Source: a virus. From it: a stretch of 31,182 bases of DNA. Each line of letters begins with the position of its first letter. The stretch's first letter is position 1. A program made the position numbers and the translations under genes. The notes under the pieces were generated by a model, which was not told the DNA's origin, made no database searches, and saw only the letters and a list, made by a program, of their open reading frames with translations. Shown here in pieces: positions 3,749-10,463 of the stretch. Location of the stretch: positions 1 to 31,182 of the IMG/VR virus record IMGVR_UViG_3300027985_000382. One strand, written 5' to 3'.

Positions 3749-4528
3749 TCAGGCGAGGACGCCTTGCGGGTCGTAGTGCTCGTGCCAGACGCGATCCATC
3801 AGCGACCTGTCCGCCTCGGTGTACGCGAGGACCTGGCGGACCTGGCCGTTGCCGACGGTGAGTGGGTACTTCTCGGGCGGGGCGCCGTGCAGGTCGGTGT
3901 ATGCGGCCTTGACGCGCTTCCCGAACACGCCGGCGACGCTGCGGAGCTTCGAGTCGGACAAGCCCTTCTCCCGCAGGTAGTCCTGCGTGTAGAGCGGGCG
4001 GCGGCCGGACTCGATCTCGGCGTGCTCACCCATGCCCCGGGCCAGGATCGTGCGCGCCTTCGCCTCCAGGTGGTCCGGGTGGATCAACCCCTTGGCGGCC
4101 TGGCAGAGTTCCATAAGGGCGCGGGCCTGGAAGATTGCGGCGTTCGTGCGGTGCTCGCGCTGCTCGTCGGTCATCGCGTACGAGCCGGTTCGGCGGATCG
4201 CCGGCAGGACCTCGTGGGTGACCCAGCGCTGGAAGGCCTTCACTGCGGCCCGCTGCGCGTCGTCGACCATGCGGCCGGTCTGACGCTGGAGGATTGCCTG
4301 GTAGAGGCCGGCCTCGGTGATGGTCGTCATCTCCTGATCACCGGAGGGGGTACTCACCAGACGCGTACCCCTCTCGTCGGGGTCGATAGCGCGGGTCATG
4401 TCGGATGCCATGCGGTGACCGAGCGCAGTGGCGACGTCGGCGGCGATGAAGGTCAGGGTGCCGTCGTCCTCGGTGAAGACGCGGAGCTGCTGGCCCTGGT
4501 AGCTGAACGGGGCGATGGTGGCAGTCAT
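3749..4528 (-). CDS. BRO-N domain phage antirepressor
   Basis: A 259-aa protein. Residues of about 5-110 match the BRO-N pattern of phage antirepressors: a beta-rich start (FSYQGQQLRVFTEDDGTLTF), IAADVATALGH, then TTITEAGLYQAILQRQTGR and AVKAFQRWVTHEVLPAIRRT, which is the characteristic end of the domain. The C-terminal 130 residues contain a helical region and a KLRSVAGVFGKRVKAAYTD segment, possibly a second DNA- or protein-binding domain. The ATG overlaps the stop of the Cro-like gene in ATGA. Antirepressors of this family bind or displace repressors during induction; here the likely target is the repressor at 4870-5268, by position. The protein ends GVLA. Confidence 0.85.
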   Translation of the reverse strand: MTATIAPFSYQGQQLRVFTEDDGTLTFIAADVATALGHRMASDMTRAIDPDERGTRLVSTPSGDQEMTTITEAGLYQAILQRQTGRMVDDAQRAAVKAFQRWVTHEVLPAIRRTGSYAMTDEQREHRTNAAIFQARALMELCQAAKGLIHPDHLEAKARTILARGMGEHAEIESGRRPLYTQDYLREKGLSDSKLRSVAGVFGKRVKAAYTDLHGAPPEKYPLTVGNGQVRQVLAYTEADRSLMDRVWHEHYDPQGVLA

Positions 4529-4755
4529 GCGGCAGCCTGTTCGGCGCCGGCCAGAAGGGTGGCCATCGGGACACCCAGACGCTCCGCAACTGCCATGAGC
4601 TCGGTCACGGACCAGTCCTGCTTGCCGATGATGCGCTTCGACAAGGAGGACTGGCCGACGCCGACGACGGCAGCGAGTTCAGCCTGGGTAACCCCGACGC
4701 GTGCCATCTCGGCCCTCACGTTGGCGCCGATTGTGGCGCTCGGGTTTGGTGTCAT
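4525..4755 (-). CDS. Cro-like XRE-family helix-turn-helix regulator
   Basis: A 76-aa helix-turn-helix protein: TIGANVRAEMARVGVTQAEL, AAVVGVGQSSLSKRIIGKQD and WSVTELMAVAERLGVP are the successive helices of the lambda-repressor/Cro fold. It is transcribed away from the repressor, as expected for the lytic partner of a genetic switch, and heads the early operon. No ribosome-binding site precedes the ATG at 4755; instead a promoter-like TTGACC-17-TAGCGT places the transcription start at or next to the ATG, so the mRNA is probably leaderless. A longer start at 4791 (TTG) would overlap the promoter and operators and is less likely. The C-terminus is EQAAA. Confidence 0.8.
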   Translation of the reverse strand: MTPNPSATIGANVRAEMARVGVTQAELAAVVGVGQSSLSKRIIGKQDWSVTELMAVAERLGVPMATLLAGAEQAAA

Positions 4756-4799
4756 GGCCGCTACGCTAGCGGCCCATCCACTAGCGGTCAACCCGCTAG
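4756..4799 (-). promoter_or_regulatory. Early promoter with overlapping CTAGCGG operators
   Basis: On the minus strand TTGACC (4791-4786) and TAGCGT (4768-4763) are 17 bases apart, seven bases before the ATG of the Cro-like gene. Two inverted repeats overlie it: CCGCTA-CGC-TAGCGG at 4758-4772 covering the -10, and CTAGCGG-TCAAC-CCGCTAG at 4781-4799 covering the -35. They share the half-site CTAGCGG (or TAGCGG), as expected for binding sites of the repressor and/or Cro-like protein. Confidence 0.6.
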
Positions 4800-4833
4800 A
4801 CCTAGAAGAACGCCAATGTAACTTGCGCTACAG

Positions 4834-4845
4834 CTAGATATCTAG
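4834..4845. promoter_or_regulatory. Perfect palindrome, candidate third operator
   Basis: CTAGATATCTAG is a perfect 12-bp palindrome 24 bases upstream of the repressor ATG. It shares the CTAG ends with the CTAGCGG sites and may control the repressor promoter. The repressor's own -10 could be TATCCT at 4858-4863, seven bases before the ATG, but no good -35 is visible. Confidence 0.4.
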
Positions 4846-4869
4846 TTGGTGAGCGCATATCCTCTCGTC

Positions 4870-5268
4870 ATGAGCACCGCACCAGCCCAACTCCCCGACT
4901 ACTCGACCCTGAACGGTCGCGTCGTCCGCAACGTTCGCCACCTCAAAGACGACTTCCGGCTGAACCAGACTCAGTTGGCCGCCGTCATCGACATCACGCA
5001 GACGCAGATGTCGCGTCGCCTCCACGGTGCCGTCCCGTTCAGCCTGGAGGAAGTTGAGCGTCTCGCCGACTACTTCGGAGTGACCGCCGGCGCGCTCCTC
5101 GGATACGAAGAAATGCCCCTCAACCCGAGAGGGCCGAGGGGCATTGGCGGTGTGGCGCGCCCGGAGGGATTCGAACCCCCAACCTTCTGGTTGGGAGTCG
5201 ACCACGACGCTGAGGTGATCCAGCTCATGCCTCGACGTCAGCTTCATATCGAGGGAATCGTGGCCTGA
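4870..5268 (+). CDS. Immunity repressor with attP inside its 3' end
   Basis: From the ATG at 4870 the product has 132 residues. Residues of about 15-80 form a helix-turn-helix domain: VRNVRHLKDDFRLNQTQLAA, VIDITQTQMSRRLHGAVPFS and LEEVERLADYFGVTAGALLG. After YEEMP the frame passes through a terminator-like hairpin (5112-5145) and then through the antisense of a tRNA 3' half (5153-5197, read as GVARPEGFEPPTFW), so the last third would be replaced on integration. The viral form ends IEGIVA, a nonpolar Ala-ended tail like a ClpXP/ssrA-type degradation signal. Known integration-dependent immunity phages have the same plan: a viral repressor with an unstable C-terminus and a shorter stable prophage form. 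A TTG at 4846 is an alternative start; no clear ribosome-binding site exists, so translation may be leaderless. Confidence 0.8.
   Translation: MSTAPAQLPDYSTLNGRVVRNVRHLKDDFRLNQTQLAAVIDITQTQMSRRLHGAVPFSLEEVERLADYFGVTAGALLGYEEMPLNPRGPRGIGGVARPEGFEPPTFWLGVDHDAEVIQLMPRRQLHIEGIVA
5112..5145 (-). terminator. tRNA-type terminator hairpin carried next to attP
   Basis: A perfect 10-bp stem AATGCCCCTC / GAGGGGCATT encloses an inner CCC-GAGA-GGG. Read on the minus strand it lies just after the CCA of the tRNA fragment and is followed by TTTCTT, so it is a Rho-independent terminator for that tRNA. On the plus strand it codes for part of the repressor tail. Confidence 0.65.
5153..5197 (-). other. attP core: 3' half of a tRNA gene
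   Basis: Read on the minus strand the segment gives acceptor strand CGGGCGC, discriminator G and CCA, T-loop TTCGAAT with a GGGGG/CCCTC stem, and variable loop AGGTT, then part of an anticodon arm. The 5' half of a tRNA does not follow: bases beyond 5197 do not pair with CCAGA. So it is not a complete gene but the part a phage shares with its attB. The core is at least 5153-5189; if it reaches 5197 the anticodon loop would read CTCCCAA. The acceptor strand recalls actinobacterial tRNA-Arg(ACG), from memory. An inverted repeat CCCAACC-TTCT-GGTTGGG (5178-5195) lies within it. Confidence 0.75.
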
Positions 5269-5305
5269 CTGGCGATGGGGAGCGCCCAGGCGATATGACC
5301 ACACC

Positions 5306-6142
5306 ATGTCGGGACCAGAGCAATTGGGGGTGCCTGCCGGATGGCGGGCAAGCGTGGATGGATGGACGATGTGGCTCAGAGCCGCAGGGCGGACACGCCA
5401 GACAATCGAGACGAGGACCGGACACGTCCGGATGCTGGCCCGGGCCATGGACGGGGCTCCGGCCGAGGTGACCGGGGTGCAGCTGGTGCGCTGGGCATCC
5501 GATCACGACTGGGCACGCGAAACCCGCAGGAGCATCTATAACTCGATCCGGGCGTTCTTCCGCTGGGCGGTCGCCGAAGGCTGGACGGCCACAGACCCAA
5601 CCGGGTCGCTGCCACCGGTGAAATCCGCCCCGCCGCGCCCCCGTCCGGCGCCGGACGCCGCCTACCGGGACGCGCTCCTTCGGGCCGATGAGCGGACTGC
5701 GCTGATCCTGCGGATGGCTGCCGAGGCCGGGCTACGCCGGGCGGAGATCGCCGGGGTGCACCGGACGGACCTGGTCGAGGATCTCGACGGGTGGAGCCTC
5801 CTCGTGCACGGGAAGGGCGAGCGGGACAGGCTGGTTCCTCTCCCTCGAGGCTTGGCGACGACGGTCCGCGGGGCCTGCATGGCCGGCGGCGGATGGATGC
5901 TCCCCTCGATTCACGGTGACCACCTGCAGCCCCGGGCCGTCGGGAAGCTCGCCGCCGAAGTCCTCCCGGAAGGCTGGACCCTCCACACGCTGCGGCACCG
6001 GTTCGCGACGCTGGCCTACCGAGGGTCGGGTGATCTGCTGGCGGTACAGCAGTTGCTCGGACACACGTCACCGACGACGACGCAGCGGTATGTCGCGGTC
6101 GACCAGGGCCGGTTGCGCACGGTGGCAGGGAGTGCCGCCTGA
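5306..6142 (+). CDS. int: Tyrosine-family phage integrase
   Basis: A 278-aa site-specific recombinase for integration and excision. An N-terminal SAM-like core-binding domain (about 15-100, with TIETRTGHVRMLARAM and RRSIYNSIRAFFRWAVAEGW) precedes the catalytic domain with all expected residues: Arg in AEAGLRRAEIAGV, Lys in VHGKGERDR, His-x-x-Arg in LHTLRHRFATL, His in LLGHTSPTTT and the nucleophile Tyr in TQRYVAVD. It has no long N-terminal arm-binding domain, so it is at the short end of the family. It lies 37 bases after the repressor on the same strand, and attP lies within the repressor, so both probably share a transcript. The protein ends AGSAA, a possible protease recognition tail like that reported for integrases of integration-dependent phages. 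Confidence 0.95.
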   Translation: MSGPEQLGVPAGWRASVDGWTMWLRAAGRTRQTIETRTGHVRMLARAMDGAPAEVTGVQLVRWASDHDWARETRRSIYNSIRAFFRWAVAEGWTATDPTGSLPPVKSAPPRPRPAPDAAYRDALLRADERTALILRMAAEAGLRRAEIAGVHRTDLVEDLDGWSLLVHGKGERDRLVPLPRGLATTVRGACMAGGGWMLPSIHGDHLQPRAVGKLAAEVLPEGWTLHTLRHRFATLAYRGSGDLLAVQQLLGHTSPTTTQRYVAVDQGRLRTVAGSAA

Positions 6143-6153
6143 GGACGACGAAA

Positions 6154-6188
6154 GCGCCCCCCAGCCTCGTGGTGAGGTTGGGGGGCGT
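6154..6188. terminator. Strong bidirectional terminator after integrase
   Basis: A 15-bp stem with two G-T pairs around a 5-base loop (GTGGT) lies between the convergent integrase and the 65-aa gene. Its core is CGCCCCCCAGCCTC / GAGGTTGGGGGGCG. It follows the integrase stop by 11 bases and would also stop transcripts from the other side. Confidence 0.85.
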
Positions 6189-6193
6189 CTGTG

Positions 6194-6391
6194 TCAGGCG
6201 AGGTGCTGGAGGAGCCAGTCGGTGGTGAGTCCGTCGGGCGCTTCGGCCCATTCGCGGTGTCCGGGCCGGTCGAGGCTGACGAGGGTGGGTCCGTCGGTGC
6301 ATCCGATGGCGGTGACGGGGCCGGTGGGGGTGGTGGCGGTGATGCGGGCCATGCCGGTGGGGGCGATCTGGGTGGTGGTGATGGTGGGCAT
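6194..6391 (-). CDS. Small hypothetical protein, 65 aa
   Basis: Not recognised. The ATG at 6391 has a good GAGAGGAA ribosome-binding site. The sequence starts MPTITTTQIAPTGMARITAT and is a Thr-rich, probably all-beta small protein ending in a helix (TTDWLLQHLA). It is a single-gene unit, divergent from the three-gene plus-strand cassette and convergent with the integrase, closed by the shared terminator. A 14-bp segment of its 5' leader (CTCGGTTGGTGTGC on the plus strand, 6403-6416) is repeated at 3711-3724 in the leader of the early genes, hinting at common regulation. Confidence 0.6.
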   Translation of the reverse strand: MPTITTTQIAPTGMARITATTPTGPVTAIGCTDGPTLVSLDRPGHREWAEAPDGLTTDWLLQHLA

Positions 6392-6423
6392 CGGTGGTTC
6401 CTCTCGGTTGGTGTGCCTCCAGA

Positions 6424-6505
6424 GTGACGGATCACCACCACCATGTCTATGTGATGTAGATCACTGCGGGACTAGTTGCATCATGGTGCCGCATGGGACT
6501 AAACT
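6424..6505 (+). promoter_or_regulatory. Promoter and operator-like repeats for the plus-strand cassette
   Basis: TTGCAT (6476-6481) and TAAACT (6500-6505), 18 bases apart, form a plausible sigma-70-type promoter before the gene at 6536. Upstream are GTGACGGATCAC (6424-6435) and GTGAT-GTAG-ATCAC (6451-6464), two related inverted repeats, and GGGACTA occurs twice (6468-6474 and 6495-6501) flanking the -35. These look like regulator sites in the intergenic space shared with the divergent 65-aa gene. Confidence 0.45.
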
Positions 6506-6535
6506 TTAGACATCAGCAAGGGAGAGGAACCCACG

Positions 6536-6904
6536 ATGTACTACCGACTGCACGACGCGAACCGGGAACACACGATGCTCCTCGACCCCACCACCTGGGA
6601 ATCCCGCCAGTACGGCGCCGAGCGCTACATCATCGACACCGCCACCGGCGAGGAGATCGAGGATGTCCGCCACGGAGTCTCCGCCTGCCGCACCATCGAG
6701 GACCTCGCCGCATACCTCGCACAGACCGGAGTCCCGATGCCCGACGACGCAGTGATCGTCGAGGTATCCGGCCCCCTCTCCGACGACACCGACCACGACG
6801 CCAACCTCGGCGTCAGCCTCAACCTCCCCGACACGCTCGGCGAGATCACCCCCGTCGGCGACTGGTTCTACGAGCTGATCAACGCCGCCTACGACGCCCT
6901 CTGA
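6536..6904 (+). CDS. Acidic hypothetical protein, 122 aa (possible lysogenic moron)
   Basis: Not recognised. The ATG follows GGGAGAGGAA, a strong ribosome-binding site. The protein is very acidic: by hand count about 24 Asp/Glu against 6 Arg and no Lys. It starts MYYRLHDANREHTMLLDPTT and has a compact mix of predicted strands and helices, with DDAVIVEVSGPLSDDTDHD in the middle. It is the first gene of a plus-strand unit with its own promoter, set apart from both the lysis genes and the integrase. Such position and charge fit a gene expressed in the lysogen, for example one that affects host DNA-binding or defence proteins, but that is inference; no family supports it. Confidence 0.7.
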   Translation: MYYRLHDANREHTMLLDPTTWESRQYGAERYIIDTATGEEIEDVRHGVSACRTIEDLAAYLAQTGVPMPDDAVIVEVSGPLSDDTDHDANLGVSLNLPDTLGEITPVGDWFYELINAAYDAL

Positions 6905-6962
6905 CACGACAGGACACCGAGCGCCCGACGACCCGCACATCGACACTCGAGAGGAAAACACC

Positions 6963-7466
6963 ATGACCACCTACATCAGCACCAGTACCGACGAGGTCGA
7001 GATGATCCAGCTCGACGAGAGTCAGGAGGCCTACCTCGACCAGATCATCGCCCTCGACGGGCGCGACCGGATCGTCCTCGAGGAACAGCCCGTCCGCAAC
7101 GGCTCCGGCCGGATCATCGGCTCGCACCTGACGATCACGACCGGGACATGGGAGACGATCCAGGAGGCCGTCACCGCGGCCGCCGAGGATGAGGACGCCC
7201 GGACGGAGCAGGGCCGCGAGGAGGCGGCGCAGGAGGTTGCGCTGGCTGCACTCCAGGAGGCGACCGGGGAACTAGACTACCGCCGCCGCGAGCTCGAGCA
7301 GGCCACGACGGCGGCCGGCCAGGCCCGCACCGCAGTGGACGACGCCACCATAGCCCGCGACGAGGCGATCCGGGCCGCGCTCGACGCCGGCGTGACGGGC
7401 TACCGGCTCGCCCGGATCATCGGCATGTCTACCTCGCAGATCTCCCGGATCGGCGCCCGGCGATGA
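6963..7466 (+). CDS. Coiled-coil protein with C-terminal helix-turn-helix, 167 aa
   Basis: The ATG lies 58 bases after the preceding gene, with GAGAGGAAAA upstream. Residues of about 1-65 are a soluble acidic domain (MTTYISTSTDEVEMIQLDES). About 66-125 form a long charged coiled coil rich in Glu/Ala/Arg. The last 40 residues (AIRAALDAGVTGYRLARIIG, MSTSQISRIGARR) are a helix-turn-helix of the kind found at the ends of resolvases and small regulators. It may therefore be a DNA-binding regulator of its own operon or of the operators at 6424-6464; target unknown. Confidence 0.7.
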   Translation: MTTYISTSTDEVEMIQLDESQEAYLDQIIALDGRDRIVLEEQPVRNGSGRIIGSHLTITTGTWETIQEAVTAAAEDEDARTEQGREEAAQEVALAALQEATGELDYRRRELEQATTAAGQARTAVDDATIARDEAIRAALDAGVTGYRLARIIGMSTSQISRIGARR

Positions 7467-9138: not shown

Positions 9139-10329
9139 TCACACCTGTGACTCGGGCGGCTCGTCCACCGCGACGACGTCGAGCGGGTTGCCGTACTTGT
9201 CGAGGCCGAGCGCCCTGAGGATCAGGATGGTCTGGTCTTCGAGACGCTTGGTGCGGTCGTCGATGAACTTGAGCTTCTCGTTGTCGGCCACGGTGAACTC
9301 CTCAGTGGTGTCGTCCGGCAGTGTTCCGCCGGTGATGGTGAGTACGCCGCGGGCGATGGCCGCCGCGACGTCGTCGATGTGCGCGTGCCCCCATGCGGCC
9401 TGCTCTGCCCGGTCGTGTGGCCAGCACTCGACGAGGCACGCCGAGGCCGTCGTCTTGCGGAGCATGTATAGCTCGGACCGGTCACGGGTTCCGCCACCGG
9501 CCCACGGCACGACAGCATTGACCTCGGTGTAGATCGCCTTCGCCAGCGCCATGCTGCGGCCGGTGCCGGTATAGAACGCGGACGGGCCGACCGCGCCGCC
9601 GGCGTCCGTATGGATGTCGACGTGAAGGTCAGCGTTGAGCGCGTTGCTGGCGTTCGCCATCTGCGCGAGCTGATCCGAGTCGGACAGGTTGTCGTCGCCT
9701 GTGATGACGACGAACGCCTCCTGCCCGGCGGCGTTGAGCAAGTCGGCCGTCTTGCGGGCGATGAGCCGGCAATGCGCCTGCTCGGTGTCGCCCGCCTTGC
9801 ACGGGTTGTGCTCCTGCGACGAGGGGCTGAGAACGATGCGCATGGGCGCCTCCCGGTCGTACTGTGTGAGGTCGTATTTGTCGATCAGGGCGAGGATCTT
9901 GGTCGCGTAGGCCGGGTCGGTGGCGTAGATCCCAGCCATGGCCCGGGCGAACCCCTCGGCGTCGGAGGCGGCGAACGCCTTGTCGTAGAGTCCGCGGTGG
10001 GTCAGGTACCAGCCGTGGCCGAGGTAGCCGGCCAGATCGGACGGGAACGCGAGGAACACGGCGTCCACGGTCGTCCACGCGCCGTCGAGGTACTCCCCGG
10101 TGGCCTTGCTGATCTCCCCGTTGCTGTGCGGGTTGTCCGTCACGCCAGCCTTCGTGGTGGTGCTGGCCTTGATGCCGTGGTGTGCGTGGCCCTTCACAGC
10201 GAGGATCGACGTGCCCCGGCCGGACTCGAGCAGCCCCTGCGCCAAGCTGACAGACGCGGGCACCCCGTAGCGGGCCCGCTCCGCCTGGGCGTGCGGCACG
10301 TGTGCGGCGATGTACTCCTCCGGCGTCAC
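9139..10329 (-). CDS. Endolysin: glucosaminidase plus N-acetylmuramoyl-L-alanine amidase
   Basis: From the GTG at 10329 (site GGGAGGTGG upstream, overlapping the previous stop as GTGA) the product has 396 residues. The first domain (about 5-150) is a FlgJ/glucosaminidase type, with SLAQGLLESGRG carrying the catalytic Glu, HHGIKAS, and a Tyr/Trp-rich second half. The second domain (about 165-320) is an Amidase_3-type zinc amidase starting RIVLSPSSQEHNPC, with DLHVDIHTDAGG and the late Glu in LVECWPH. The tail is short, charged and probably helical. Two wall hydrolases of different specificity (glycan and peptide-stem amide) in one chain are well suited to an actinobacterial wall. No signal peptide, so export depends on the holin. 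Confidence 0.9.
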   Translation of the reverse strand: MTPEEYIAAHVPHAQAERARYGVPASVSLAQGLLESGRGTSILAVKGHAHHGIKASTTTKAGVTDNPHSNGEISKATGEYLDGAWTTVDAVFLAFPSDLAGYLGHGWYLTHRGLYDKAFAASDAEGFARAMAGIYATDPAYATKILALIDKYDLTQYDREAPMRIVLSPSSQEHNPCKAGDTEQAHCRLIARKTADLLNAAGQEAFVVITGDDNLSDSDQLAQMANASNALNADLHVDIHTDAGGAVGPSAFYTGTGRSMALAKAIYTEVNAVVPWAGGGTRDRSELYMLRKTTASACLVECWPHDRAEQAAWGHAHIDDVAAAIARGVLTITGGTLPDDTTEEFTVADNEKLKFIDDRTKRLEDQTILILRALGLDKYGNPLDVVAVDEPPESQV

Positions 10330-10463
10330 GGCACCCACCTCCCGGCAACGGTCTTCGGCGCCTGCAGCTCGCGCACCTGGTCGGTCAGCCGGGCAATCAT
10401 GGAGCCCTGGCTGATCACCAACTTCTCCAGACACTCCAGACGGACCTCGACGGGTTCAGGCAT
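10326..10463 (-). CDS. 45-aa helical protein before the endolysin
   Basis: A short gene starting MPEPVEVRLECLEKLVISQG with a GAGGAG ribosome-binding site, ending at a GTGA overlap with the endolysin start. It reads as one continuous amphipathic helix (EVRLECLEKLV, then MIARLTDQVRELQAP), likely an oligomeric coiled coil. No membrane segment. Translational coupling to the endolysin suggests a part in lysis or in setting endolysin level, but nothing more specific is visible. Confidence 0.55.
   Translation of the reverse strand: MPEPVEVRLECLEKLVISQGSMIARLTDQVRELQAPKTVAGRWVP

Follow-up and report, generated by a model that had tools for sequence, protein, structure and literature searches.

A likely tRNA terminator within the repressor gene of an uncultured virus with integration-dependent immunity

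Integration-dependent immunity, in which the phage attachment site (attP) lies inside the repressor gene (rep) and the 3′ end of that gene is swapped on integration, has been known since 2013, and the description of one more member is therefore incremental. The switch has been documented in mycobacteriophages of clusters G, I, N and P (PMC4557955), in Gordonia phages (PMC5559632), in M. abscessus prophages (PMC9934374, PMC8092301) and in Bifidobacterium prophages (PMC6109161). As it is thus already on record in phages with unrelated structural genes, the proposal of an initial annotation that the present locus extends it to a phage with different structural genes does not hold. Here we analyse the uncultured virus record IMGVR_UViG_3300027985_000382, the whole 31,182-bp stretch of which (G+C 68.5%) is referred to as the window. 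Its system is integration-dependent immunity of the known type, and the locus very probably serves a temperate tailed phage of actinobacteria as its immunity–integration cassette. We propose that a single stretch of rep probably has three uses—repressor coding, a core that rebuilds the tRNA, and an intrinsic tRNA terminator kept by selection on codon choice—in the window phage and in about half of the repressors examined. A replacement tRNA terminator within a repressor gene appears to be undescribed, the word ‘terminator’ not being mentioned in the literature examined on the switch; this novelty is provisional because the founding 2013 paper lay outside our literature search.

The features of the cassette are collected in Table 1. 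The repressor gene lies immediately upstream of the integrase gene (int) in the same direction, with a Cro-like gene divergent from it. Translation from the ATG at 4870 agrees with the initial annotation that the repressor frame runs on to 5268, giving 132 residues that end in IEGIVA; the frame stays open through the antisense 3′ part of a tRNA, and a Cro/C1-type helix–turn–helix (HTH) is detected in the product. The Cro-like protein and the repressor are 33% similar in the HTH part. The terminase, capsid and tail genes of the window are distant kin of known phages only, and searches for a close relative of its capsid, terminase and repressor found none. Elsewhere in the window, a strong inverted repeat seen by eye right behind int (6154–6188) looks terminator-like, and an endolysin gene with glucosaminidase and amidase domains (9139–10434, − strand) adjoins the tail genes.

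Table 1 Features of the immunity–integration region of the window
Feature	Positions	Strand	Description and basis
Antirepressor-like gene (Bro-N)	3749–4528	−	Next in the leftward early operon after cro
Cro-like HTH gene	4525–4755	−	76 aa; divergent from rep
rep–cro control region	4756–4869		Inverted repeats 4756–4774 and 4831–4848, candidate operators
rep, immunity repressor, viral form	4870–5268	+	132 aa; translation, HTH/BetR and phage repressor families
rep, predicted prophage form	4870–5187	+	Residues 1–106; stop formed at attL, from the joint with the host tRNA
Hairpin, likely to replace the tRNA-Arg terminator in lysogens	5112–5145	−	Inside rep; 15-bp stem, 4-nt loop, T-rich tail TCTTCG
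attP core	5157–5189		Matches the 3′ terminus of the host tRNA-Arg(ACG) gene exactly, the tRNA lying on the − strand; 5155–5189 with the best host match
Virus-only 3′ end of rep	5190–5268	+	Residues 107–132, ends -IVA, swapped on integration; translation, joints, tail statistics
int, tyrosine integrase	5306–6142	+	278 aa, ends GSAA; catalytic residues conserved

The 33-bp core (GCGCCCGGAGGGATTCGAACCCCCAACCTTCTG) lies entirely within the rep coding sequence and is identical to the 3′ end of tRNA-Arg(ACG) over 33–35 bp, the best host match (Agrococcus sp. KRD186) covering 35 bp. In an identity search against the 98 tRNA genes of the fetched loci, it was the only window stretch of at least 16 bp in common with host tRNAs, which upholds the earlier view of it as the only plausible attP core. 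The same core sits inside a repressor gene in many phages and, taken with the sole match, this argues that the tRNA identity is not due to chance. Window and host agree through CCTTCTG and then diverge, the window reading GTTGGG and the host, at the attL sites of relatives, running on as ATCCGTAGTCAG; the core is accordingly placed at 5157–5189. The tRNA part of 45 bp (5153–5197) assigned initially was too long, as 5190–5197 (GTTGGGAG) is not tRNA.

The host gene itself was named correctly, ARAGORN recovering a complete tRNA-Arg(ACG) in 10 of the 10 attL sites checked. A tRNA-Arg with another anticodon was considered as attB because several phages have GGTT after the core, and is ruled out by the anticodon ACG of the rebuilt tRNA at all ten sites. 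We also rejected tRNA-dependent lysogeny, in which a core of about 10 bp leaves the host tRNA unrebuilt and the phage bears a tRNA gene: the 33–35-bp core rebuilds the tRNA. No tRNA gene was found in the window record. ARAGORN and Rfam (gathering and relaxed thresholds) do not call the tRNA fragment in rep and, together with the comparison against the 98 host tRNAs, yield no attP candidate other than 5155–5189. No lysogen of the window phage was found; among 395 genomes sampled from the class, two contain an exact 34-bp core.

Past the core, host tRNA genes go on with ATCCGTAG, which turns the window’s TGG into TGA and makes the joint TTC-TGA. Joining window 4870–5189 to the host sequence yields a product of 106 residues ending RPEGFEPPTF-TGA with all six host genomes tried, so that both the continuation of tRNA-Arg(ACG) assumed in the initial annotation and the prophage form of 106 residues predicted from it are borne out by real host genes. 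The viral form is longer by 26 residues.

Prophages of relatives in host genomes, located via the integrase and via the core pattern, have undergone like events: in 11 of 12, rep is truncated at attL and the lost tail lies at attR, where its remnants are retained in frame. Seven of the 12 use the window’s frame and end in RPEGFEPPTF, RPKGFEPPTF, RPEGLEPPTF or RSKGLEPPTF followed by TGA. In another four, the repressor is read in the next frame and finishes with SDP and TAG; the remaining one, in Labedella, uses the third frame, its prophage form exceeding the viral form in length. The two att ends of the Nakamurella and Rothia prophages lie on different contigs, so that the attL–attR pairing is inferred there. 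Prophages with the switch occur in Actinomyces, Brachybacterium, Curtobacterium, Agromyces, Nakamurella, Rothia, Tersicoccus, Xylanimicrobium and Nocardioides, and it is this recurrence that the survey adds, with lysogens visible in the genomes of these genera, all at one tRNA gene. Anatomy, attL product, integrase type and the natural lysogens of relatives all agree with the switch of the kind found in phage BPs that had been suggested for this locus.

Several elements seen in the survey differ in layout. The repressor of Labedella phragmitis (L188, L198) is read in the sole frame kept open by the antisense tRNA; a repressor also lies upstream of the second att site, so that two elements may be present in a tandem array. 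Many tRNA-Arg elements with this integrase (G001, G003, G004, G006, G011, G126 and G172) have only 15–18 kb between their att sites and are small prophages, remnants or satellites. In L015, a 90-aa repressor-like open reading frame (4245–4517, + strand) ending ADLEHHRRVAA lies directly before a related int; it has a tRNA-like stretch (RDSNPEP) unmatched by the tRNA-Arg pattern and is probably the same design at another tRNA.

The integrase is, by its sequence, a BPs-type tyrosine integrase. In the alignment, the residues expected at a tyrosine-recombinase active site fall in invariant columns, and the protein is 48–49% identical to cluster G and Typha-group integrases and 59% identical to an Actinomyces polynesiensis integrase. 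Its C terminus, GSAA, resembles a degradation tag as a feature of sequence only. A relative of the integrase is present in 43 of 213 genomes of the Actinomyces family (E ≤ 1e-40), mostly away from tRNA-Arg(ACG); a scan of 24 genomes found this tRNA gene unoccupied in the majority, many Actinomycetaceae integrase relatives being located elsewhere. L007, a single 88.7-kb contig, carries two related integrase genes back to back (4960–5772, − strand, and 6250–7140, + strand) that flank the tRNA core.

The choice of repressor frame and the viral tails bear marks of selection. At 25 non-redundant repressor-bearing att sites, the three frames are used 16, 7 and 2 times, the rarest being the frame left open by the antisense tRNA (p = 0.0035 for the rare frame against one third). 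With the frame set by the HTH, 12 of 15 sites have a viral tail whose last residues are -A or -AS; for the remaining frames, the figure is 6 of 30 (p = 0.00017). The window tail is -IVA, not -AA, and kin tails end in -AVA (L177 and Typha, the latter -GAVA), -EVA (L005), -RVA (L100) or -LVA (Rothia, L031); the repressor of the BPs-group phage Angel ends in -DKAS. In a Bacillus thuringiensis reporter, GFP carrying -LAA or -LVA fluoresced less brightly than GFP carrying -AAV or -ASV (PMC5732988), the destabilising effect of -LVA being about that of -LAA; an -AA end is also missing from several M. abscessus repressors of this type (PMC8092301). The kin tails, the -LVA reporter result and the ends without -AA in Angel and M. 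abscessus make degradation of the 132-aa form via its -IVA tail plausible. Truncation could instead be neutral, with both forms active and immunity independent of integration, and the -IVA rather than -AA tail would fit such a reading, as would the lack of a tag-like end in some related repressors (L123, L143); we regard it as very unlikely in view of the frame bias and the tag-like tails in the repressor frame, the -AA end of Int, the tail remnants still in frame at attR and the precedent of BPs. That the real attP lies elsewhere, the tRNA-like stretch in rep being a relic of an earlier integration system, is scarcely credible, given that no other window stretch of at least 16 bp matches a host tRNA and that relatives with 51–59% identical Int use the same core beside int in real prophages.

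The core is accompanied by a hairpin that the initial annotation left unnoticed. On the tRNA strand, 11 nt beyond the end of the tRNA, it reads AATGCCCCTCGGCCC-TCTC-GGGTTGAGGGGCATT and then TCTTCG (5145 down to 5112); in rep, it occupies codons between the HTH-coding part and the core. An uninterrupted stem of at least 9 bp occurs within 50 nt of the core at 14 of 25 non-redundant sites, compared with 0–3 for segments starting at least 20 nt from the core elsewhere in the gene. The stem is usually 5–13 nt past the tRNA end, like host tRNA terminators, and the tails hold more T on the tRNA strand than on the other (mean 3.6 versus 2.2 of 9, p = 0.004, 15 sites). Against a null in which the amino acids were kept fixed and synonymous codons were drawn from the same gene, the hairpins of 12 of 25 sites, the window included, are more stable at p ≤ 0.01; for the window (z = −3.0, p = 0.005) this rejects the hairpin as a by-product of the protein sequence. 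In Actinomyces polynesiensis and G172, 45–47 bp beyond the core, hairpin included, are common to attL and attR, which looks as if these phages had copied a host terminator; in Labedella, where two elements may lie in tandem, the two sites share 49 bp beyond the core. The hairpin is absent from the BPs-group (Angel), Typha and M. abscessus-type repressors examined, and is therefore not essential to the switch. Its stem can form on either strand and is located between rep and int in the viral transcript, as would suit a role on the rep–int mRNA, in its stability or in damping read-through into int. We consider such a role unlikely, because the T-richer tails are on the tRNA strand, the spacing from the tRNA end is mostly that of host tRNA terminators, and the stretch shared by attL and attR in Actinomyces polynesiensis and G172 has the appearance of a host copy.

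The reading frames, the match of the core to the tRNA, the joint of 106 residues, the hairpin and the corresponding events in relatives’ prophages are read directly from sequence, and we propose the following mechanism around them. In the virus, rep and int run one way and would be co-transcribed; the -IVA tail most likely marks the 132-aa repressor for proteolysis, and Int, which ends in -AA, would, if it persists long enough, recombine attP with the 3′ end of the host tRNA-Arg(ACG) gene. At attL, the repressor would then stop after residue 106, with the tail and int moved to attR, away from the rep promoter. This short form, predicted to be stable, would repress cro and the antirepressor-like gene (ant) in the leftward operon and, presumably as the only form to do so, confer immunity. 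The phage core would rebuild the host tRNA. As integration parts this tRNA from its own terminator, which is displaced to attR, and directs tRNA transcription antisense into rep, the hairpin at 5112–5145 most likely ends that transcription. A terminator in rep would answer how a lysogen halts tRNA transcription running antisense into the very gene that maintains lysogeny, a read-through problem not raised in the literature examined on the switch. This likely terminator is the part of the system worth following and is directly testable.

Among known systems, BPs/Angel (cluster G) share with the window an attP in rep, an adjacent int, a divergent early gene, a tRNA-Arg attB, the tRNA reading frame RPEGFEPPTF and an Int 48% identical to that of the window. 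In BPs, as in the window, the host base beside the core makes a stop at the third base of a codon (TGC to TGA in BPs, TGG to TGA in the window), and the viral and prophage forms are 136 and 103 residues long, compared with 132 and 106 here. Their structural genes, however, are unrelated, the repressors are about 29–35% identical over part of their length, and the hairpin is missing from BPs/Angel. In the Typha group (Typha, Hilltopfarm), an annotated immunity repressor crosses this core in the window’s frame and ends in -AVA, and Int is 48–49% identical, but the genomes are 75 kb long, no hairpin precedes the core and the repressor is otherwise not close. Gordonia phage Bakery (Wizardvirus) has a rep that runs through the tRNA-Arg core, a tail ending in -AAA, a strong hairpin before the core and a 46% identical Int, whereas its core is read in another frame (ARRDSNPKP) and its structural genes are different. 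The Nakamurella lactea prophage (L201/L191) differs in its viral tail, -RRRAS, and in having att ends on separate contigs (presumed pair), yet it holds the nearest repressor found (37%), in the same frame, with a 51% identical Int, RPEGFEPPTF-TGA at attL and, like the window, a hairpin before the core.
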